Shown piece after piece: positions 25,933 through 38,270 of a DNA stretch of 64,000 nt. Position numbers and translations under genes: made by a program. Below the pieces are notes generated by a model that ran no database searches, was not told the DNA's origin, and saw nothing but the letters and a program-made list of their open reading frames with translations. Origin of the DNA: Armatimonadetes bacterium DC (lineage in GTDB: Bacteria > Armatimonadota > Fimbriimonadia > Fimbriimonadales > GBS-DC); contig LDYB01000019.1 of assembly GCA_001442985.1 (NCBI GenBank), positions 62,001 to 126,000 on the forward strand. Direction: 5' to 3'. Positions within the stretch are counted from its first letter, which is position 1, and every line of letters starts with the position of its first letter.

Positions 25933-28050
25933 CTACGCCTCCTCCTCAATCCTGTCCATCACATCACTCACCGTGCCCCAGCGATAGAACGCGGGCAGAA
26001 TCTGAATCACCGCGTCCATCTGCTCGAACAGGTCTTTGACAAAACTGAAATGCGGGTTGTTCGCCCCGTAAAGGCTGAACCGTGCTGGATCAAAGGACGC
26101 CAGCGGATCCGCAGGGTTCACCATCGATGCCCAGTATGGTGGGTGCTGGTATGGCGCTTCGTAATGCACCGCACAACCCAACCATGCATTCACCGCCGTC
26201 GTCAGCACCCGCTGATACCCACGCCACGCCATCGCCTCGTACTGCGTCCCCCAGTTCGTCGTCAAATCGTTCGCAATCGTAAAAGTCGGGCGCACCACAC
26301 TCGTCAGCGTCCCATGATAAAACCCTCCTGCATCACTGCCCGGAATCTCCAGCTGCCGTTCAATCGGCAAGACCAGCCCGTTCCACACGCGCGACGCAGG
26401 CACACGCTGTGCGTCGGAACCACGACGCGCAGACGCCTCGTGCGCCCGTATCCCACGCACGCCTTTCTCCCGCAACACGCGCCAGTAGCCCTGACCGCCC
26501 GTACTGTTCGCCGCGGCGTTCGCATAGCGGTGTATCCCACAAAAAGCGTCCGGGAAGCCCAGCCCATCCACCACATACGACTCCCCGCGCTCAATCACAA
26601 TCTTCGCAAGGTGATAATCCGCTGTGCGGTGCGGCGCACTCAAATCGCCCGTGCCTGTCATCTCCTCACTCACACCCAGCGGGATATCATAATAGACCCT
26701 GCCATCCATCACGACCTCTAAAGTACCAGCAGGAGGCGTCCCAGAATAGGCTTCTTTCAGCACGACACGCCCTGTCCGACGACGCACATCGTTCGGCTTG
26801 CCCAGCGTCCAGCGATCCGTCGCCGCATGACGCCCTATCGTCGCGTTGTAGGTCGCGTTCCCCCAGCCCTCGCTGCCCATCACCACATGGTCGTGAATGC
26901 AGACGGGCGTGGCACGGGCATGGTTCATCCGAATCTTCTGTAGAATCTGCTGCGCTATCTGCCGTTCCGATTCGGAGAGAACCTGTGCGACCTCGCTCTC
27001 TTCTGCTGTGCTATAGGTTCCGCTCGTCCAATAACTGCCCACCGTCCCGCAGATGATGTGCGTGTTCCGCGTGTTGGCAAAATCGATCAGCCAGTCCCAG
27101 AGGGCACGCAGATTCTGCAACCGTTCTGTGAGCGTGCCGGGCGTGTTGTAAATCTGCATGAAGTGGTCGATTTCCCAATACACAGGGAACGGACGGCGTG
27201 GCAAGACCCCTGCGCATTTCAAGCCGTAGGGAAGCCAGAAAGTGTAGAGCGCCGCGATGGAACGCAAGTTGCGGGTATCGCTCCCTGAAATGGGCAACAG
27301 GTAATGCTGGGCGTAGCGGTAGGCGACAATTGCGTCGTTGCCGAAACTGCGCCCACCCGAATAAGCCGATTCGGGATAATCGGGCACCGCAAGAATCTCG
27401 CCTTTAGGCATGGTCTGCCCGCGATAGGGGAAGTTCGTGCTGGCGAGCGCGGCATGCTTTGCGAGGTCTAAACGCGCGAAGTAAATCTGAATAGTGCCAG
27501 AGGTCTCATGCGCCCAGAAGCTGGTGGTGTAGACCCGTCGGTTCTCGCGCAGGAGTCGCACGGGCGTGCCCCCACGACAGGCAACATTCCACTGAGCCGT
27601 CAGAACCGAAGTGCCGCTACTGACCCCTGTTTCGGCTTCATAGAAAGTGTTCGGGTCGCTGGGGTTCCAGCGCACGAGGGGGAAGTCGCTGGGCAGGCGG
27701 GTATTGAGTGCGCTGCGGCTGGCGTGCAGGTGCATGCCGAAAAACAGCACGGGCGGGTCGGCGTCGGTGTTCCAGTTGAGCCATGTGGCTGTGCCGTCGT
27801 TGGGCGAGTTGCCGGTTGAACCGAACCGTACATGATTGAACACCAGCACGGCGTCGAACTGGCGCAGGTAGTCGCGGGCGGTGGCGCTATCGGGCACAAT
27901 CGTGCCCGCGCCTTTCGTATGGAGCTGGGTTGTGGACTGATAATAGGCGAGTTCGGTCTCGTAGCCCCAGCGCTGGAGCATGCGCAGGACGGATGCGGGA
28001 GGGGTATAGTTGCTGGCTGGGTTCGTCCAGACAATCAGCAGTTTCGGCAT
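25933..28050 (-). CDS. Large putative hydrolase at the end of the capsid cassette
   Basis: This 705-residue protein was not assigned to a family. Residues 1-130 look like a Rossmann or flavodoxin-type fold (KLLIVWTNPASNYTPPASVLRMLQRWGYETELAY...FDAVLVFNHVRFG). The middle holds PVYWEIDHFMQ and VCIHDHVVMG, acidic and histidine motifs like those of metal-dependent polysaccharide deacetylases. No signal peptide is seen. It begins directly after the stop of the upstream small gene with a GGGGTGAG site and so is part of the phage-like operon. It may be a tail-associated depolymerase, a cargo enzyme or a host gene captured by the cassette. The deacetylase-like idea is inference. Confidence 0.5.
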   Translation of the reverse strand: MPKLLIVWTNPASNYTPPASVLRMLQRWGYETELAYYQSTTQLHTKGAGTIVPDSATARDYLRQFDAVLVFNHVRFGSTGNSPNDGTATWLNWNTDADPPVLFFGMHLHASRSALNTRLPSDFPLVRWNPSDPNTFYEAETGVSSGTSVLTAQWNVACRGGTPVRLLRENRRVYTTSFWAHETSGTIQIYFARLDLAKHAALASTNFPYRGQTMPKGEILAVPDYPESAYSGGRSFGNDAIVAYRYAQHYLLPISGSDTRNLRSIAALYTFWLPYGLKCAGVLPRRPFPVYWEIDHFMQIYNTPGTLTERLQNLRALWDWLIDFANTRNTHIICGTVGSYWTSGTYSTAEESEVAQVLSESERQIAQQILQKIRMNHARATPVCIHDHVVMGSEGWGNATYNATIGRHAATDRWTLGKPNDVRRRTGRVVLKEAYSGTPPAGTLEVVMDGRVYYDIPLGVSEEMTGTGDLSAPHRTADYHLAKIVIERGESYVVDGLGFPDAFCGIHRYANAAANSTGGQGYWRVLREKGVRGIRAHEASARRGSDAQRVPASRVWNGLVLPIERQLEIPGSDAGGFYHGTLTSVVRPTFTIANDLTTNWGTQYEAMAWRGYQRVLTTAVNAWLGCAVHYEAPYQHPPYWASMVNPADPLASFDPARFSLYGANNPHFSFVKDLFEQMDAVIQILPAFYRWGTVSDVMDRIEEEA

Positions 28051-28560
28051 TTATCTCACCCCAATCACTTTGGCGTAGGTGTCTGCCGTGCCGGAGCTGG
28101 CGCGGGCGACGACGATGCGGTACTGGTCGTAGTAGGCTTCCTGCGGGTTCGTGTAGCCGATATCGATGCGGGCGCGTCCGTTCGCGGGCACGCTCGTGAA
28201 AGTGCCTTCTTTGACGACCGCCCAGCCGGAGACGAACGGTTCGCCGTTCGGGTCGGTCGCTCTGCCGTAGACGCGGTAGTGGTAGGTATCGCTGGTGGTG
28301 AAGGCGAGGAAGACGGTGATGCCGCGGTACTTGCCGGTGCCCACTAAGGTGGGTTGCTCACTGGCGGTGCTGCCGTAGAGGTCGGTATCGCCCACCTGCA
28401 GGTCGGTCAGGAGCGTGCGTCCTGTGGTGGGGACGAACTGGGTGATGGCGATGAGGGTGTCTACCGTCCTGAACTCCGCCTCGCCCACCACTTCGGTGGG
28501 AAGGGGGTTTGTGCGATTGGCGTCCACAATCTCGTTTTGCTTGAGGAACTTGAGTGCCAT
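28051..28560 (-). CDS. Small structural-type protein of the capsid cassette
   Basis: The 169-residue product starts at the ATG at 28560 with a perfect AGGAGG site 6 nt upstream; the frame extends upstream only through a hairpin region. It is beta-rich: FRTVDTLIAITQFVPTTGRTLLTDLQVGDTDLYG, then a fibronectin-like segment YHYRVYGRATDPNGEPF...DQYRIVVARAS. No family was recognised. Its place right after the capsid gene suggests a head-completion, decoration or spike-base role. It abuts the 705-residue gene with no gap, showing co-translation. Confidence 0.6.
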   Translation of the reverse strand: MALKFLKQNEIVDANRTNPLPTEVVGEAEFRTVDTLIAITQFVPTTGRTLLTDLQVGDTDLYGSTASEQPTLVGTGKYRGITVFLAFTTSDTYHYRVYGRATDPNGEPFVSGWAVVKEGTFTSVPANGRARIDIGYTNPQEAYYDQYRIVVARASSGTADTYAKVIGVR

Positions 28561-28578
28561 AGGAAACCTCCTGTAGCG

Positions 28579-28604
28579 TGGGGGCTGGGATTGCCCAGCC
28601 CCCA
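28579..28604 (-). terminator. Strong hairpin just after the capsid gene
   Basis: TGGGGGCTGGG and CCCAGCCCCCA pair perfectly over 11 bp around an ATTG loop, between the capsid gene and the next gene. There is no T-run on the minus strand, so it may stabilise the capsid message or act as a partial terminator rather than a full stop. Confidence 0.65.
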
Positions 28605-28616
28605 TATTGGAAAGAT

Positions 28617-29546
28617 TTACGCGCCTGTGCCCATCAGGGCGGTCTGCCACAGCCCGTAGCCGACGCCGTAGCGAGCGCGCACGCCGTAGTAGACCACATC
28701 GCGCATGAACATCTGCTCGCTATCGGGGCGGTCTAACGCGGCGAACTCGAGGGGCACATCGCGCCGTTCCTGAAAGATAATCGCCCGCACGGCACGCGAG
28801 GTGTCCAGCAGGAACCACTTGTTCTCATCCGCGCCCGTGAGGTAGGGCGTGACGATCAGGCGCAGCTTGCCCTGCAACACATTCCGATAGGGCGTGTAGT
28901 TGCCTGTCGTGTTGGCTTGCACCACAATCGGCGATTCCAGAAGCTCCATCGCCAGCCAGTGGAGTTTGGGTCCTACCAGCAGCGTGTCGGGCATGATGCC
29001 CATCGGGCGTCCGCGATCGTCTTTGAACTGCATCATCTGCGCAATCGCTTGCTGGAGCGCGTTCGTGGAGAGCGCGCCGCTGAAGATGTTGCTCTGGGTG
29101 CCGCTCTCACCGTCGCGATGGTTGGTGGCAAAGAAGGGCTTGCCATCGTAGGTCTTCTCGGTCGTGCCTTTGAGCAGCGCCTCAATCACCAGTTGCTCGC
29201 GATGGCGCACCGCCTCGGCGGCGAGGTCGCGCACGCGCATGCGAATCATATCGTACTGCTCATCTTCCAGAGCGCGGCGCTCCACGGCAATCGAGGCTTC
29301 CCACACCTTATCGCTAATCGTGTATTCGTAGGCTTTCAGCCCCGTCGGCGTGCGCTCATCTACAAACTCCCGCATCACAGGTACGGTACCGAGCCAGCCG
29401 TATTTCTGAACGGGTAGGTTCGTGCGCACAATCGTGGCAATCTGCGGCACAATACTGGCGCGGTCTTCTGAGCGATAGGCGTTGAAAAACTCCGTGCGGA
29501 GTCCCGCCTCAATCAGCGACATCAAATCGCTTCGGACTAACGGCAT
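28617..29546 (-). CDS. Major capsid protein, Mu gpT-like
   Basis: The 309-residue protein fits the Mu-like major head subunit (gpT) family of HK97-fold capsids: an N-terminal LIEAGLRTEFFNAY, an acidic-rich FVDERTPTGLKAYEYTISDKVWEASIAVERRALEDEQYD, RVRDLAAEAVRHREQLVIEALL, the FFATNH turn, DTLLVGPKLHWLAMELLES and a C-terminal YYGVRARYGVGYGLWQTALMG. A perfect AGGAGG site precedes the ATG. It lies after protease/scaffold and decoration genes, the normal head-gene order. No HK97 crosslinking pair could be confirmed. The frame is intact, without stops or frameshifts. Confidence 0.85.
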   Translation of the reverse strand: MPLVRSDLMSLIEAGLRTEFFNAYRSEDRASIVPQIATIVRTNLPVQKYGWLGTVPVMREFVDERTPTGLKAYEYTISDKVWEASIAVERRALEDEQYDMIRMRVRDLAAEAVRHREQLVIEALLKGTTEKTYDGKPFFATNHRDGESGTQSNIFSGALSTNALQQAIAQMMQFKDDRGRPMGIMPDTLLVGPKLHWLAMELLESPIVVQANTTGNYTPYRNVLQGKLRLIVTPYLTGADENKWFLLDTSRAVRAIIFQERRDVPLEFAALDRPDSEQMFMRDVVYYGVRARYGVGYGLWQTALMGTGA

Positions 29547-29558
29547 AGGCTGACCTCC

Positions 29559-29972
29559 TTACTGAACGAAGTTATCGATGCGAATGCGCAGGCGCGTGTC
29601 GTCCACAATCTCCAGCAGCGTGCCGACCTGCACATTGTGCGTGGTGCTTTTGGCGACCTCGTTATCGGATACGGCGCGCACGGTGGTTCCCACATCCGCC
29701 TGTGTGAAGGTGCCGACGCGATGATAGATAAAACTCCCGCGTTTAATCACCCGACAGCGTTTCGCGCCGTTCTCCCCGTTCAGGTTGTCCACGCTTTCAA
29801 ACGCGACACCCACGAAGCGCAAGCCACTGGTATCGCTGGCGGGCACGAGATACCCACCGGAGTTCACACACACCAGCGCGCCTTTCCAGATTTGCGTGTT
29901 GCCCGCGACGGGATAGGCGACCAGCAAGCCTTCGCGCTCATGCGCCTCATACGGTTCGCTTAATGCAGGCAT
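29559..29972 (-). CDS. DUF2190-like capsid decoration protein
   Basis: The 137-residue protein is beta-rich and fits the DUF2190/capsid-cement kind of protein that sits between scaffold and capsid genes in many Mu-like and Siphovirus heads: a SEPYEAHEREGLLVAYPVAGNTQIWKGALVCVNSGGYLVPA start, then FVGVAFESVDN, and a C-terminal NVQVGTLLEIVDDTRLRIRIDNF. An AGGAGG site precedes the ATG, which lies 1 bp after the stop of the protease gene. It likely binds the capsid outer surface. Confidence 0.7.
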   Translation of the reverse strand: MPALSEPYEAHEREGLLVAYPVAGNTQIWKGALVCVNSGGYLVPASDTSGLRFVGVAFESVDNLNGENGAKRCRVIKRGSFIYHRVGTFTQADVGTTVRAVSDNEVAKSTTHNVQVGTLLEIVDDTRLRIRIDNFVQ

Positions 29973-29973
29973 C

Positions 29974-30768
29974 TTATCGCACCTCCTTCTGTCGCAGAAT
30001 CTCGTCGGGGTTCAGGTCAGGGAACACCTGTTGCAAGAACGCCAGCTCTTCAGCGCTGAAATCGGGAGCAGGGGTGTTGGGCACGGGCGCGGTCTCGGCG
30101 AGCCACTCGCGTTTGGGCAGGCTCTCCACAAACTGGCGGAATAGCGCACTCACGCTCTGCTCCTGCCCATGAAAGCGCACGGCAAGCGTCTCGTCGCTCA
30201 TCAGCAACGCCTCGGCGAGGGGTGCCTGCACGGGAGCAATCCGTCCTTCTGAAACCCAGCGTTCCACCTGCGCGTGCGCCTGAAACTGTCGGAGCTGGAC
30301 TTCCAGCGTACGAACGCGCTCGGTCAGGGCAGACTCGTGAGCCGTCTCACAATCCTGCGTTTCGGGGTTCCAATCGGCTGGAAGGTTCGTCATCGTTTGA
30401 GCCTCCTTCGTTTGGGCGAACAGCTGGGCGCTCGCCACGCGGGGATTGCCCGTAACCGAAACCTCGTGAAGCGTGTTCAGGGCGGGACTCAGCCCCACGC
30501 TCAGCCCACGCACTCGAAGGCGACGCAAAAGCGCATCCGCTTCGGGAAACAGCGCGAGCAAGCCGTACAGCGAGTCGCCCTCCACCCACACTTTCTGCAC
30601 CCAGCCCAGCAGCACGGGCGAGGGGCAGTGCTCCACGAAGATCGGCACAGGGGCGCGAAAGTTGCGCACTATCTGCTGCAGCTGCTGGCGCGTCAAAACA
30701 ATCCGCTTGTCGGGATAGACGCCCGCCTCCAGCAGCTTCGCCTGACGAAACACCCAGTCAGTTCGCAT
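29974..30768 (-). CDS. Mu gpI-like prohead protease with scaffold domain
   Basis: The 264-residue protein fits the Mu-like I protein family. The N-terminal half has VYPDKRIVLTRQQLQQIVRNFRAPVPIFVEHCPSP, then VWVEGDSLYGLLALF and RGLSVGLSPALNTLHEVSVTGNPRVASAQ, carrying the histidine and serine expected for the protease. The second half is charged and helical (RVRTLEVQLRQFQAHAQVERWV), the scaffold part that is normally cut off in head assembly. A terminal acidic/Pro-rich tail follows. It is the first gene of the cassette; no good ribosome binding site is visible upstream of its ATG, and no terminase or portal gene precedes it. Confidence 0.75.
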   Translation of the reverse strand: MRTDWVFRQAKLLEAGVYPDKRIVLTRQQLQQIVRNFRAPVPIFVEHCPSPVLLGWVQKVWVEGDSLYGLLALFPEADALLRRLRVRGLSVGLSPALNTLHEVSVTGNPRVASAQLFAQTKEAQTMTNLPADWNPETQDCETAHESALTERVRTLEVQLRQFQAHAQVERWVSEGRIAPVQAPLAEALLMSDETLAVRFHGQEQSVSALFRQFVESLPKREWLAETAPVPNTPAPDFSAEELAFLQQVFPDLNPDEILRQKEVR

Positions 30769-31958: not shown

Positions 31959-32405
31959 CTATTTCCCCAACAGCTCCCGGCGCACTTCGTCAAAAGTCAG
32001 CACCTTGCCCTTGAGCCGTTGCGCCTCCTGCTCCGCCGCCTCGCGCGACGGCACTGCCAGCACCCGACTGCCCATCGGCGTCTGCAGGTCGTCCGCGCGC
32101 ACATAAAACGCCTGCGTGCCGTCCAGCCATTCGTCGGGCTTGTGATAGTTCGGCACGAAATAGCGTTTCGGTGTGAGCTTCTCGCGCTCCACATCCAGAA
32201 ACATACAGTTGAAGTCGTCGTACTTGCGGAACTCACCGTCGGGCGTTTCAATCGCGCAGCCGAACTGCGGCTCGTTGATAATCATCCGGCAGTTGGCGCA
32301 GGCGTCCTCGCCATACCGAATGCGCGGCAGATTTTCTGAAGCGCCACAGCCCGAAAACGCCAGCACGCCCAGCCAGCCCAACAATATCCAACCGTAGATT
32401 TTCAT
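31959..32405 (-). CDS. nosL: NosL, copper chaperone lipoprotein of N2O reduction
   Basis: The 148-residue protein has a lipobox (GVLAFSGC) and the NosL motif CANCRMII (C-x-x-C-x-M), the Cu(I) site that delivers copper for the CuZ centre of nitrous oxide reductase. The remaining RKYDDFNCMFLDVEREKLTPKRYFVPNY and FYVRADDLQTPMGS strands fit the family. The ATG at 32405 overlaps the stop of the NosB-D-F-Y gene (ATGA), so it is co-translated with it. It acts on the outer side of the cytoplasmic membrane. The longer in-frame extension to 32699 is antisense coding noise. Confidence 0.92.
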   Translation of the reverse strand: MKIYGWILLGWLGVLAFSGCGASENLPRIRYGEDACANCRMIINEPQFGCAIETPDGEFRKYDDFNCMFLDVEREKLTPKRYFVPNYHKPDEWLDGTQAFYVRADDLQTPMGSRVLAVPSREAAEQEAQRLKGKVLTFDEVRRELLGK

Positions 32406-35400
32406 TCGCGCGCACCTCGCTTTGCGAACCATGTCCAGGCTATCAGCAGCGGCACTGCCAGCCACGCCAGCAACGCGCCCACGCCGACCCACAGCACGCC
32501 ATCGCCGAATCGGTCGCGGGCATACAGCCCTGCCGAACCCAGCACCTCCAGATTGCCCTCCATCAACTGAATGACGGCTATCTTGAACACCTGCAGCGGG
32601 TTCAAAAAGGTCAGCCACAGCAGGGTCTGCGCTTTGAGCTGCAGGGCAATCGCCGTGCCGATAATGCCCAGATCGCTGATGAACACCAGCGCCAGCCACA
32701 TCAGGAGCGCAATCCCCACTGCTGTCGCGCCGCGTTTTACCAGCGTGGAGACCCCCATCCCCAGCGCCAGACAGACCCAGCCCAGCAGCAGGGTCAGCCC
32801 CATCTGACCTGCGAATTGCCCTACGGGCATATCTGCGCCGCTCATAAACAGCAGAAGCCCGCTACTGCCGAACCCCACCAGCACCGCCGAACCCAACAGC
32901 ACCATCCCGCCCAGAAACTTGCCCCAGATTAAATCCGTCGGGCTAATGGGGTGGCTCAGCAGGGTGTAGAGGGTCTGCTGGTCGCGCTCGGAGGCGACGC
33001 TCATCGCGCCCAGAATCAGCCCGATCAACGGCACAATCAGCAGCGAGAGGTTCAGCAGGCTCGCAAAAGTGCGCCCAAAGCCCGCCACACCGCCACTCTC
33101 GCCCGTGCCCGTCAGCCCAAAGGCGGTCAGGATGACCGACAGCACGGTGAAAATCCCCGCCAGCAACAGAAACCACCGATTGCGCCGCGAGTCCCGAATC
33201 TCCTTGACTGCCAGCAGACGCACTTTCTCCAGCAGCGAAGGGAGCGCCAGCGAGTTCTTCATACGGGGAACCTCGTCGGCGGAAGCTTCACCTGCGAAGC
33301 GCATCGTTTCAGGAATTTGCGACCAGTCGGGCGACTCCACAGGCGCGCGCCATTCGTAGTCCAGCACCTCAATACCCGAATCCAGCAGCAGTTTCAGGGG
33401 GTCCACACGCTTCGCTGGCAGATGATGCACCACAACCATGCCGTCAAACGCTTCCACGCTATAGCCCGCTTCCCGCAACAGCTGCTGGGCGCGCTCCGAG
33501 TCGCTGGGCGGCACCAGCAAGCGCAGGCTCCCGCGCTGAAGCCAGAGCTGGGCAAAGTCGCGTCCTGTCAGGTCGGCGACCTTTTTGCCATATTCCAGCA
33601 CAATTACACGGTCCGCCAGCGCGCGCACCTCCGCAAACTGGTGCGTGCAAAACACCAGCGTCTTGCCCTCTGCCTTGAGGCGACGCAACAGCTCCAGCCA
33701 CTCGGCGCGTGCCGCCGTGTCCAGATGCGCCGTCGGCTCGTCCAGCAGCAGAATCGGTGGGTCCGAGAGCAACGCCAGTGCCAGCGCCAGTTTCTGCTTG
33801 AGACCCCCCGAAAGCGCGTGCACAGGCTTCTCGACGTGCGGCTCCAGCTCCCACTCGCGCAGCAGGGTTTCCACACGCTCCGCCGCGACGCCCCGCAGGC
33901 GTGCGTAAAAATGCATGGTCTCCAGCACCGTCTGATCCGGGTGCAGGTGAATCAGCTGCGGCACATAGCCCACCTGCTGGCGCACGGCAAGGCTCTCCCG
34001 ATCCGCCGCATAGCCCAGCACGCGCGCTTCGCCCTCAAACCGTAACAGCCCCAGCAGACAGCGCAAAATGGTGGTTTTGCCCGCGCCATTCGCGCCCCAC
34101 AACGCCACCGTCTCGCCCTCGCGCACCACGAACGAGACCGAATCGACGGCTCGCACATTGCCAAACCGTCGGGTCAGGTTAGAGACCTTTATCACCGCAC
34201 CCGCCAATTGGACTGCCATCACCCGTTTCCCAGTTCGCTCTTTCTGCTTGCGAAACGCCTGCACGCGCGGTCGCGCCACTCCCAGCACGCCCAGCGTCAG
34301 TGTGAGACTCGCAAAAAGCAGCCATCCCTGCCTGGAGGCGACCCGTTTGCTGGTGTAAGGCGGGGGCAGGGGACGCATACGCGGCGCCTCATCCCGCACC
34401 AGCGGACGCGGCGCAAACAACGGGAACACACGCGCCCCGAAATCCAGCGCCTGCGCCGACGGACTGTAGGTCAACAACCGCAACGCCGCGTTCTGAGACG
34501 CCAGCAAATCAAACACCTTCACCGCCTGATACGCGACATCGCCTGTGCCGTCGCCGTCGGCGTCATAACCGCTGTAGTCGCTCCAGTAATTGCCCCTCCA
34601 TGATACCCCGCTCACCGAATGGGGACGCTCCAGAGAAACCTGCTCCCAGTTCTCAATAAAAGCGTTTTCCTCAAAGCGGTTCGTCTTGACCGCCAGATGG
34701 AGATACACCCCCACATCGTTGCGAATCAGCCAGTTGCCCCGATACACCCCTTCGCCGCTGTCCACAAAAATCCCCATGCGGTTATCCGCAATCAGGTTCT
34801 GCTCCACCTGAAGCCCATAGCCGTCCTTAATCCCTAACCCCATCCCGCTGGGACCCCGATTGGCGCGAATCTGATTTTTCGCCACGCGCACGCCATCACT
34901 ATACATAATGTAGACACCCACCGAGTTGTTTTCCAGAATGTTGCCCTCCACCACGCTGTTGCTACAATACATAAAATGCACACCATACCGCGACTGGCGC
35001 ACCACATTGTTCCGAATCTGTACCCCCTCCGAGTACCAGAACACGAGGTCGCGCCCCCCAACGACCGTGTTTTGCTCCACAATTGCGTGATGGCTGTACC
35101 AGATACGAATCTGGTCGCCGCGTCGGGCAATCGGCAGGTCATGCGAAAATATCATGTTGCGCCGCACCACCGTGCGATGTGCATAGTCCAGATGCACGCC
35201 AAACAACACCCTCTCGATGCGATTGTCTTCCACGATGCAGTCGGGCGCTTCCACATGGATGCCGCTGTCCTGGCTGTTCAACACGGTGCCGCTGTTTCGA
35301 ATCACAAAGCCCCTCACCACACTGTGAGGGGCTTTCAGCGTGAGAACGGTGCCCACGCCCCCACCGTCTAAGATGGGGGCGTGTTCGCCGAGGAGGTACA

Positions 35401-36217
35401 GCGGCTTCTCCACCACCCAGTGCCCGTGATGGATTCCGCCCACGACGCGAATCGTATCCCCAGCCTGTGCCCGCTGGAGGGCTTCGCTCAGGCTCAGAGT
35501 GCCCCCCGAAGCAACCACCCATTCACGCGCATGCAGGGGCGCCAGGCTGACAAGCAGCAGCCCCAGCGACGCAACTCCTGCGGCAGCACGACCGGGCATA
35601 GAGGCTTGATACCCCGCCAGCACACGCTCACACCGAACCCGTCGCGCGGTCGCCCACACTGCCAGCACGCTGGCAACCACCACCAGCGCGTACCCCAGCC
35701 ACGGCCAGGACACCACGCCGAACTGGGCAATCTTGCCAGGTCCCACAAGCGGTGGCACGAACGGCTTCACCATCGCGCTGAGGGGCGCCTTCGGGTCCAG
35801 ATTCAGCCCGAACTCCCGCAGCCAGTAATACAAATCCGCAGGGAACACCACCAGCACCGCCAGCACAGGCAGAATCAGCATCACCTGAAGCCAGCGCGGA
35901 CGCCGCACAAAGACCGACGCCAGCAACGCCAGAGCAATCAGGCTCAAACCGGGGATGGAAATCTTGCGCTCAAACGGCGCCGCTTCGCCCAGTGGGCGCA
36001 TCCCGATATAATGGTTCAACCCATCCACTTCGCGAACATCGCCCTGGGCGCCCGTAACATGAATGTAAACATACAGCCCTTCGGGGTACTGGGGCGCGAC
36101 AATCTCAATCCGCCAGTAGGGAAGGAAAATCGATGCCACTACCAGCAGCGACGCCAGCAACAACATCACTTTATTCAAGCCCTCTCCGGGGCAATCAAAA
36201 ACCTGTGTTCGGGTCAT
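32402..36217 (-). CDS. nosDFY: NosB-NosD-NosF-NosY single-chain fusion
   Basis: This continuous 1271-codon frame joins parts normally made as separate proteins. Residues 1-205 have four membrane helices and LNHYIGM, like the NosB membrane protein of clade II clusters. Residues 210-600 hold a helix and the NosD right-handed beta-helix (repeated N-x-I/V turns, DADGDGTGD near 557). Residues 675-970 are the NosF ATPase: GANGAGKT Walker A (711-718), LSGGLKQK signature (805-812), LLLDEP Walker B and the H-loop (FCTHQ). Residues 986-1271 are the six-helix NosY permease. NosDFY delivers material for CuZ maturation. ATG 36217 sits 8 nt after GGAGG; GTG 36226 is the alternative. nosZ precedes and nosL overlaps. 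Confidence 0.9.
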   Translation of the reverse strand: MTRTQVFDCPGEGLNKVMLLLASLLVVASIFLPYWRIEIVAPQYPEGLYVYIHVTGAQGDVREVDGLNHYIGMRPLGEAAPFERKISIPGLSLIALALLASVFVRRPRWLQVMLILPVLAVLVVFPADLYYWLREFGLNLDPKAPLSAMVKPFVPPLVGPGKIAQFGVVSWPWLGYALVVVASVLAVWATARRVRCERVLAGYQASMPGRAAAGVASLGLLLVSLAPLHAREWVVASGGTLSLSEALQRAQAGDTIRVVGGIHHGHWVVEKPLYLLGEHAPILDGGGVGTVLTLKAPHSVVRGFVIRNSGTVLNSQDSGIHVEAPDCIVEDNRIERVLFGVHLDYAHRTVVRRNMIFSHDLPIARRGDQIRIWYSHHAIVEQNTVVGGRDLVFWYSEGVQIRNNVVRQSRYGVHFMYCSNSVVEGNILENNSVGVYIMYSDGVRVAKNQIRANRGPSGMGLGIKDGYGLQVEQNLIADNRMGIFVDSGEGVYRGNWLIRNDVGVYLHLAVKTNRFEENAFIENWEQVSLERPHSVSGVSWRGNYWSDYSGYDADGDGTGDVAYQAVKVFDLLASQNAALRLLTYSPSAQALDFGARVFPLFAPRPLVRDEAPRMRPLPPPYTSKRVASRQGWLLFASLTLTLGVLGVARPRVQAFRKQKERTGKRVMAVQLAGAVIKVSNLTRRFGNVRAVDSVSFVVREGETVALWGANGAGKTTILRCLLGLLRFEGEARVLGYAADRESLAVRQQVGYVPQLIHLHPDQTVLETMHFYARLRGVAAERVETLLREWELEPHVEKPVHALSGGLKQKLALALALLSDPPILLLDEPTAHLDTAARAEWLELLRRLKAEGKTLVFCTHQFAEVRALADRVIVLEYGKKVADLTGRDFAQLWLQRGSLRLLVPPSDSERAQQLLREAGYSVEAFDGMVVVHHLPAKRVDPLKLLLDSGIEVLDYEWRAPVESPDWSQIPETMRFAGEASADEVPRMKNSLALPSLLEKVRLLAVKEIRDSRRNRWFLLLAGIFTVLSVILTAFGLTGTGESGGVAGFGRTFASLLNLSLLIVPLIGLILGAMSVASERDQQTLYTLLSHPISPTDLIWGKFLGGMVLLGSAVLVGFGSSGLLLFMSGADMPVGQFAGQMGLTLLLGWVCLALGMGVSTLVKRGATAVGIALLMWLALVFISDLGIIGTAIALQLKAQTLLWLTFLNPLQVFKIAVIQLMEGNLEVLGSAGLYARDRFGDGVLWVGVGALLAWLAVPLLIAWTWFAKRGARE

Positions 36218-36234
36218 TTTCATCACCTCCAGCG

Positions 36235-36270
36235 AAAAAAATGGGGTGGGGGCGTCCTGCCCCCAGCCCC
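36235..36270 (-). terminator. Rho-independent terminator between nosZ and the nosBDFY gene
   Basis: On the minus strand GGGG and GGGGGC pair with GCCCCC and CCCC (one bulged base) to make an 11-bp stem with a 5-nt loop, followed by ATTTTTTT. This is a standard terminator structure. Since the downstream nos genes have no visible promoter, partial readthrough is likely. Confidence 0.75.
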
Positions 36271-36281
36271 TATGAGAGGTC

Positions 36282-38270
36282 TCACGGCTCCACCAACAGG
36301 TACCCCATCATCTCCAGGTGGAGGGCGGAGCAGAACTCGGTGCAGTAGAAGGGATAGACTCCCTCTTTATCCGCCACGAATCGAACCGTGACGGTTTCAC
36401 CGGGTTCCAGACTCGCGCCGATTCCATACCCGGGGATGGCGAAGCCGTGAGTGGCGTCGCGCGTGCGCTCCGTGTTGGTAAGATGCCACACCACTTTCTG
36501 CCCCTTCTTCACCTTCACATGCTCAGGGGTAAAGTGGCTGCGGATAACGGTCGAGTAGACATACACGGTGTCGCCCTTAACCTCAACGCGCGGCTTGTCC
36601 AGACCGGGTTCAGTCGCTTTCGCCTGAGTGTGCGGATCCCAACCGACATCAGGGTAGGTCTCCCACGACTTCAGGCGATCCGCGCGGATAATCTGGGCGT
36701 AGTGCGGCTCGCCCATGCCCAGCGGCATATCCGCCAGCAAGCGCATCGTCTCGCCTGTGCCGCTGATTTCAATCAGCTGCAGGTTCTGTGGCAGGAGCGG
36801 ACCCGTGGTCAGGAAACGATCCACCGACCACTTGTTCAGCGCCACGAGATATTTGCCAGCAGGTTTCACCGTGTCGCCTTCTGCCGCGGCGAGGTGCCCG
36901 ATGTTGTAGTGGGTCTGAACCTTGCCCACCAGCTTCCAGGGCTCTTCGGGCGCCTTGTATTTGCAGCCGCCCAGCGTCCAGCGCGCGACTGCCGTGTCCA
37001 GGAAGAGACTCGTGTAGGCGTAACCCTTATCGTCAAACTGGGTGTGCAGCGGACCCAGACCCAGCTCCACCTGCGCCTCTTTGGTCGCGTCAAAGCGAAG
37101 CACGGGCACACCATACGGGTCGGTCTTCTCGTAGTCCTTGTTCTGGATGGCTTGTTTGATCTTCTCGATGTTGTAGACCGTTACATGGGGATCCAGCTTC
37201 CCGCCGACCACGATGTGCTTGCCGCACGGGCACACATCGACGCCATGCGGGCTTTTCGGCTCCGGCGTGAAGAACAACACGCCTCCTGCCACCGCCTCTT
37301 TGAGCGGAATGACACGGAAGCCGTTGATGCGAACGAACTTACCCGCCTTCACCAGCTGCTCTGCCTGCTTCCAGTTGATAATGTGCAGGTAGTCCATGTC
37401 GTTCTGGGAGACCCCAGCCTCAAACGGCGGGTTGCCTTTCTCCACACCGCCTGTCGCCATCTCGGTGTTGAACGAGTTCACAAACACCCAGCCGTCGCTC
37501 GCCGCCTTGCCGCAGTCCGCAAGGTCCTGCCAGTAGGGGGGAAGCTCTACCGCAAACGACTCCTCCAGCACAATCCGACCACGCTTGCGGTCGAACTTGT
37601 AGAAGGTAATCAGCCCACGGTACTCCTCCTTGTAGCGCTCAAGCGGGGCATACCGGTGCCCCAGCGGAACGCCATACTGCGAAACCTCCACCACATACTC
37701 CGTGTTGGGTGTTACGAACGCCGCGCCATGGTTATTGTTGAACACCGGGTTGCGCACAATCTGCTTGGTCTCCCAGTCCTTCAGGTCAATCACCGCCACG
37801 CGCCCGTTCAGCTTGTCGCCAATAAACAGAAACTCACCGTCATACTCTCCGTTGGTCTCGCTCAGGGCAGGGTGGTGCGTGTCCGCAGGGGGATAAGGTC
37901 CGCGTCCGTACACCTCGTGAATTGCGGTGTTCTCCACCCCAAACCCATAGCCGCTCCACGAATCGGGCACAAACACAGGGATTACCTTCAGGATTCGCAT
38001 CGAGGGGATGCCAATCGCAATCACCTGTCCGCTGTGTCCACCCGAAGCGAACATCACAAACTCGTCGTGCTTCCCACCCGGCACATAGGTGGCTAACGCG
38101 CCGTAGATGTCTTCTGGGGTCAGCCCACGCTCACGCGCAACCGCCAGCGCATCCGCAGGCAAACCCGACGGTAAACTGGGCGAACGGCTACCACGTACCC
38201 AAAACGCAATCGCCACAATCAGGAGCAGAACCACTCCTGCAATCAGGTACCGTGTTGTAGAGCCTCTCAT
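36282..38270 (-). CDS. nosZ: Nitrous oxide reductase NosZ (clade II type)
   Basis: NosZ reduces N2O to N2 in the envelope. The 662-residue product has a plain hydrophobic signal anchor (YLIAGVVLLLIVAIAFWV) with no twin-arginine motif, which fits the Sec-exported clade II form. CuZ histidine segments are visible (NNNHGAAF, SPHGVDVC, GPLHTQF, HYNIGHLAAAEGD). The C-terminal cupredoxin domain has the CuA motif CTEFCSALHLEM (C-x3-C-S-x2-H-x2-M). An AGGAGGAGAT site precedes the ATG. A strong promoter and a palindromic operator lie upstream. It heads the nos operon. Confidence 0.96.
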   Translation of the reverse strand: MRGSTTRYLIAGVVLLLIVAIAFWVRGSRSPSLPSGLPADALAVARERGLTPEDIYGALATYVPGGKHDEFVMFASGGHSGQVIAIGIPSMRILKVIPVFVPDSWSGYGFGVENTAIHEVYGRGPYPPADTHHPALSETNGEYDGEFLFIGDKLNGRVAVIDLKDWETKQIVRNPVFNNNHGAAFVTPNTEYVVEVSQYGVPLGHRYAPLERYKEEYRGLITFYKFDRKRGRIVLEESFAVELPPYWQDLADCGKAASDGWVFVNSFNTEMATGGVEKGNPPFEAGVSQNDMDYLHIINWKQAEQLVKAGKFVRINGFRVIPLKEAVAGGVLFFTPEPKSPHGVDVCPCGKHIVVGGKLDPHVTVYNIEKIKQAIQNKDYEKTDPYGVPVLRFDATKEAQVELGLGPLHTQFDDKGYAYTSLFLDTAVARWTLGGCKYKAPEEPWKLVGKVQTHYNIGHLAAAEGDTVKPAGKYLVALNKWSVDRFLTTGPLLPQNLQLIEISGTGETMRLLADMPLGMGEPHYAQIIRADRLKSWETYPDVGWDPHTQAKATEPGLDKPRVEVKGDTVYVYSTVIRSHFTPEHVKVKKGQKVVWHLTNTERTRDATHGFAIPGYGIGASLEPGETVTVRFVADKEGVYPFYCTEFCSALHLEMMGYLLVEP

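Follow-up and report, generated by a model that had tools for sequence, protein, structure and literature searches.

We report that a cassette of phage-type head genes in Armatimonadetes bacterium DC is probably the capsid part of a gene transfer agent (GTA)-like, DNA-packaging particle that was domesticated in the Armatimonadota. The genes of this element are identifiable as phage head, packaging and neck genes, are dispersed over host chromosomes, co-occur across genomes, are co-inherited with host genes and are subject to purifying selection. Their products would form a particle that packages host DNA and transfers it to other cells. That DNA is actually transferred, and that the system is active in the strain from which the window derives (the window being the entire 64-kb stretch of DNA analyzed here), we hold to be less probable than the general assignment.

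The cassette, at 25933-30768 of the window, consists of five intact open reading frames, all on the minus strand, with an RNA hairpin between the third and the fourth:

29974..30768, minus strand: head maturation protease/scaffold, Mu gpI-like, 264 aa (PHROG 976, E 1.9e-9)
29559..29972, minus strand: capsid cement/decoration protein, 137 aa (PHROG 1731, a virion structural family, E 1.1e-27; weak match to PF22758)
28617..29546, minus strand: major capsid protein of the Mu gpT family, 309 aa (PF10124, E 3.2e-63; PHROG 371, E 2e-68)
28575..28606, minus strand: strong RNA hairpin immediately downstream of the capsid gene, without a T-run (MFE -28.2 kcal/mol for 28561-28620, z -3.7)
28051..28560, minus strand: 169-aa protein, first of a two-gene module that recurs (about eight further loci in the family have it immediately ahead of a 705-aa homologue)
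25933..28050, minus strand: 705-aa protein, second of the two-gene module (homologues in 14 of 22 genomes)

The PHROG and Pfam matches uphold the identities that a preliminary description had given to the first three genes, namely a gpI-like protease/scaffold, a decoration protein and a gpT-like capsid. Residues H47, S90 and E102 of the protease/scaffold are invariant among 11 homologues, phages included. The capsid protein, the only one of the gpT type in its genome, matches the capsid in PDB entry 8rkc in a sequence search (E 2.6e-58), and its Pfam matches are Mu gpT and Phage_capsid_4, with nothing else. The cement gene adjoins the capsid gene in every Fimbriimonadales locus examined, and protease-cement-capsid is the conserved unit, genes four and five forming a separate module. 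The intact five-gene operon of the preliminary description is therefore intact in its frames but is not one conserved unit: genes four and five recur at many other loci, and relatives conserve protease, cement and capsid but mostly do not keep the five together.

Strong ribosome binding sites had likewise been ascribed to the cassette; the cement, capsid and fourth genes have clear Shine-Dalgarno sequences, the fifth gene has a weak one, and none is evident ahead of the protease gene. The start of the fourth gene lies at 28560, preceded by AGGAGG (169 aa), and a longer frame, from 28650, runs into the capsid gene. Several relatives have hairpins at the equivalent site behind the capsid gene, which differ in sequence yet are kept in place, as would be expected if the capsid gene were highly expressed and followed by an attenuator; the hairpin at 28575-28606 may itself be an attenuator or a site of processing. 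Scans for promoter and terminator consensus sequences gave matches at chance level only. The cassette has the GC and third-position GC values of host genes and is flanked by host genes, encoding a glycosyl-hydrolase-like protein, a DUF1559 prepilin-like protein and NosL (by Pfam), in agreement with the glycosidase and prepilin-like neighbours noted previously. A nitrous-oxide-reductase type gene cluster (31959-38270; NosL by Pfam, the rest by inspection) adjoins the cassette.

Profile searches of the window found no portal and no terminase, and an intact prophage was rejected on these grounds and on the host-gene flanks. The earlier statement that no other phage genes accompany the cassette is accurate only as far as the window goes; elsewhere in the genome (2.85 Mb in 26 contigs, 95% complete), two further contigs carry genes for a portal, an adaptor and a stopper. 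A single Mu-type portal gene (G000:C25:99762-100880; PF06074, E 3e-70) stands alone among host genes, and a neck operon (G000:C14, about 219.4-220.5 kb) encodes, besides the adaptor and the stopper, a membrane protein and a protein of 67 aa. The capsid gene, the portal gene and this operon are on three separate contigs. In structural alignment, the best rows for the adaptor model (pLDDT 88) are five phage connectors, those of Bxb1, SPP1, SaPI1, E217 and Douge (Z 6.0-7.6, the next unrelated row having 3.3). These scores, below the level where fold alone is proof yet consistent with the gene order, suggest that the adaptor is of the phage connector type. In plain Foldseek, the top row was again a phage connector, at E 4.7, with no viral match under 0.001, and PDB sequence searches with adaptor and stopper returned chance matches only. 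Neither PF03237 nor a 14-row TerL profile detected a terminase in this 95% complete assembly, owing to either an assembly gap or a real loss.

The carriers of the element are Fimbriimonadales and other Armatimonadota. Across 151 genomes, with bit-score thresholds chosen by hand, capsid, portal and terminase co-occur (Fisher p 3e-23 to 4e-35), and the element genes are nearly always present in one copy each and mostly scattered. Family f1 has the portal in 18 of 18 genomes, the terminase in 17 of 18, the capsid in 15 of 18 and one adaptor in 13 of the 13 tested, and the Walker A, Walker B and nuclease residues of its TerL are invariant. The complete genome G004 (2.99 Mb) carries the portal at 1.23, the capsid at 1.41, the terminase at 2.27 and the adaptor at 2.56 Mb. 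Genes flanking element loci are common to close species only. The operon of Fimbriimonadaceae has the order protease-cement-capsid-membrane protein-adaptor-stopper, the terminase and portal genes being next to it in some cases and at other sites in others; deeper Armatimonadota have one cluster, terminase-portal-protease-cement-capsid-(variable genes)-adaptor-stopper-holin-amidase, which in several lineages begins with a small-terminase-like gene and ends with the amidase. The portal or terminase has in-frame stops in a few relatives. Capsid and portal are absent from genus g11; therefore, the element is not essential. G040, G047 and G051, of this genus, retain a diverged TerL (31-33% identical) without capsid or portal, which is either a relic or part of another element. 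In several species of one lineage (L050, L088, L158, L160), an aquaporin-type gene lies between TerL and portal in the cluster. A bin named Methanoregulaceae archaeon (L137) contains a cassette nearly identical to that of a Fimbriimonadaceae locus (L140), reflecting bin contamination or a wrong label.

Pairwise distances of capsid, portal and TerL follow those of the host protein FtsH (Mantel r 0.94-0.97, 0 of 2000 permutations being as high), in a test that is descriptive because the rows share ancestry. For each genome of the family, the identity of its capsid to that of the window is nearly the same as the FtsH identity, and the two are still close outside the family. A capsid tree of 128 rows, inferred by a quick tree search, places the window among 55 cellular sequences in a clade (SH-aLRT 82) that includes no viral contig and, inside it, in a subclade of 20 (SH-aLRT 99). 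Viral contigs searched with a single capsid sequence yielded no relative, and one distant match was obtained with the cement protein. Two IMG/VR viral contigs (L179, L199) fall within a cellular Armatimonadota capsid clade; they are probably host chromosome, labelled viral because of the element genes. G018, G119, G133 and G137 were rejected as carriers of the element capsid, as their capsids fall on tailed-prophage branches.

In pairs of close relatives, as distinct from strains of the window species, dN/dS is 0.036-0.055 for the capsid, compared with 0.03-0.05 for FtsH; 0.05-0.11 for the portal, with synonymous sites near saturation; 0.10-0.14 for the cement protein; 0.08-0.19 for the protease; 0.16-0.20 for TerL; 0.08-0.11 for the adaptor; and 0.14-0.21 for the stopper. 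Thus, head, packaging and neck genes are under purifying selection in relatives (dN/dS 0.04-0.21). The preliminary description had named two observations that would speak against domestication. Neutral evolution of the capsid gene was not found, its dN/dS in relatives being about 0.04, and no relative has a complete prophage at the same site; related tailed prophages are at other sites and have different capsids (32-43% identical). The proposal of a domesticated capsid or part of a GTA is strongly supported by co-inheritance, purifying selection and the scattered, single-copy portal, terminase and neck genes.

The two remaining cassette genes are of another character. The 169-aa and 705-aa proteins have no match in Pfam, PHROG or NCBIfam; a PDB sequence search with the 705-aa family gave chance matches only, and the AlphaFold model of the 705-aa protein is poor (pLDDT 41) and was left out of the structure comparison. 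Accordingly, the label of a large enzyme given previously to this protein is not sustained. The pair recurs across family f1, mostly distant from the capsid, with one locus beside prophage endolysin and minor tail genes and two beside an amidase. At the latter (L308:7244-11653 and L312:7434-10747, syntenic in G004/G008), the gene order is amidase, 169-aa gene (apparently repeated) and 705-aa gene, and these loci might be a lysis/surface module that became detached from the element. In the closest family cases, where the capsid is 80% identical, the pair proteins are about 30-37% identical. The 705-aa gene comes after the capsid gene in three genomes, most relatives being without it beside the capsid, and the slot between capsid and adaptor holds other, unrelated genes in other lineages. 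The variable capsid-side slot, the phage links and the fast divergence suggest that both proteins are surface-exposed and of the receptor type. The 169-aa protein might be a capsid-borne or fibre-base protein and the fast-evolving 705-aa protein a surface-binding or surface-modifying spike. By analogy with the two-protein head spike on the RcGTA capsid, for which there is precedent in PMC10218006, the pair may act as capsid-borne surface-binding proteins.

We propose that an ancestor captured a phage with a Mu-type head, the replication, integration and apparently the tail genes of which were lost, while the head and packaging genes would have become inherited host genes and the original operon would have broken up and scattered in many Fimbriimonadales. 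The protease/scaffold, cement and capsid proteins would assemble the shell on the portal, the terminase would pack DNA through the portal, adaptor and stopper would close the neck, and the holin-like protein and amidase, still cluster-adjacent in some lineages, would release the particle by lysis. Because its genes are spread over hundreds of kilobases, a particle would be unable to package the full set of them and should carry mainly host DNA. Counting against the GTA-like reading are the terminase missing from the own assembly, the stops in a few relatives, the absence of capsid and portal from genus g11 and the lack of an identified tail for delivery.

The tail, in particular, bears on whether the particle is a GTA in the strict sense. 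In the homologous phages, tail genes lie directly behind the connector, and the compact clusters of deep Armatimonadota lineages contain none. A search with phage tail profile A4 had no match in about 20 genomes positive for the element, apart from prophage carriers and one weak case. PF10145 had no match in element genomes and is uninformative as a tail test, because it also missed the real tape-measure gene of a prophage in G004. That prophage (L307 and L051, about 658-690 kb) is a separate, tailed one of the gpT type, with genes for portal, TerL, tape measure and minor tail proteins, and shares its host genome with the scattered element. A tail is likely to be absent from the core cluster, the tests being weak for the rest of the genome. 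A reader may accordingly prefer a tailless head system over a strict GTA, in which heads filled with host DNA borrow the tails of resident or superinfecting phages or just release their DNA for uptake, and we regard this as a serious minority possibility. The compact clusters and the A4 results are in its favour, as are the retained adaptor and stopper, which would dock a foreign tail, and the tail theft known for capsid-forming PICIs (cited in PMC11389934); a dispersed, diverged tail could have escaped the tests, however, and there is no known helper phage. Similarly tentative is the broader view of a phylum-wide tailless GTA, in which neck-closed, DNA-filled heads would bear lineage-specific surface proteins from the variable capsid-side slot and would deliver their DNA through tails borrowed from phages or by setting it free for natural uptake.

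Decay, mobility and compartment formation appear less plausible. A once-active GTA or prophage, partly decayed, with the strain devoid of terminase and hence unable to pack DNA, is unlikely: the terminase not found in the own assembly, the in-frame stops in relatives and the absence from g11 fit such a relic, but all head, packaging and neck genes have dN/dS of 0.04-0.21 (in pairs of relatives, so that decay in this strain is possible), catalytic residues are invariant, frames are full and retention in the family is near-universal. The head-only gene content recalls capsid-forming PICIs (PMC11389934), and a mobile satellite of this kind, or a degenerate prophage, could be spreading horizontally; this is very improbable, given genes scattered over the chromosome in complete genomes, distances that follow FtsH and a capsid clade without any phage contig. 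Least credible is the encapsulin-like container of the preliminary description, with the 705-aa protein as cargo. That the 705-aa gene follows the capsid gene in three genomes would agree with it, but the capsid is Mu gpT, with no encapsulin match, and the reading is disfavoured because this capsid co-occurs with portal, terminase, maturation protease and neck proteins, where an encapsulin-family shell would have linked cargo and neither portal nor terminase; moreover, the 705-aa gene is mostly not beside the capsid and occurs elsewhere, also beside a prophage.

The GTA-like reading can be set against known systems. Three of the six GTA attributes listed in PMC9662315 are recognizable here, from genes alone: tailed-phage (Caudoviricetes) origin, from the gpT capsid, Mu portal, TerL, gpI protease and cement matches; an endogenized, often multi-locus genome, with three contigs in the own assembly and four distant loci in G004; and vertical inheritance with host co-diversification, from the Mantel correlations and the all-cellular clade. 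The remaining three concern the particles themselves: incomplete packaging of the element's own genome, which the distances between the loci predict; a content of mostly random host DNA; and delivery of that DNA to other cells. The classified GTAs whose genetic basis is known are those of Alphaproteobacteria and Brachyspira (PMC9662315), and a recent case is from Faecalibacterium (PMC12946183). Our search of open-licence papers found no GTA report for Armatimonadota, and as far as this literature shows, the element is new for the phylum, independently domesticated, scattered and perhaps tailless. The "incomplete prophages" reported in Fimbriimonadales MAGs, for example, a 7.1 kb "portal; head; capsid" region (PMC8597652), are probably the same element; the scattered head-only layout explains why such systems are labelled this way and makes the tail question testable. 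If the reading is correct, a GTA was independently domesticated from Mu-headed phages in many Armatimonadota, a phylum with few cultured members, and would give communities of hot springs, soil and freshwater a route through which to exchange genes.

The nearest matches found are Mu-like phages, and the recognized GTA families (Rhodo-, Barto- and Brachygtaviriformidae) were compared by description. RcGTA and the other Rhodogtaviriformidae, the alphaproteobacterial type I GTAs, are likewise phage-derived, vertically inherited and dispersed, the RcGTA genes occupying five loci in R. capsulatus (PMC9662315), and the two proteins of the RcGTA head spike are a possible parallel to genes four and five. 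In contrast to RcGTA, which has a tail and baseplate, the present element has a Mu gpT-type head, an Armatimonadota host and stronger dispersal, with no tail found. BhGTA/VSH-1 (Brachygtaviriformidae) also co-diversifies with its host and has a single-copy terL outside the structural cluster (PMC9662315), but that cluster is a single one of 16.3 kb, in a different phylum. FpGTA I and II (Faecalibacterium, PMC12946183) share a head/packaging operon apart from a second operon, and particles without identifiable tails; unlike the present element, known from its genes, they are from Bacillota, their particles have been seen experimentally and they have baseplate, fibre and lysis genes in the second operon. 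Capsid-forming PICIs encode heads and take tails from phages but are contiguous mobile islands, whereas here the genes are scattered and vertically inherited. Finally, Mu-like siphophages and prophages with gpT capsids have homologous portal, protease, cement and capsid genes in the same order, but with tail genes directly behind the connector and on separate branches of the capsid tree.
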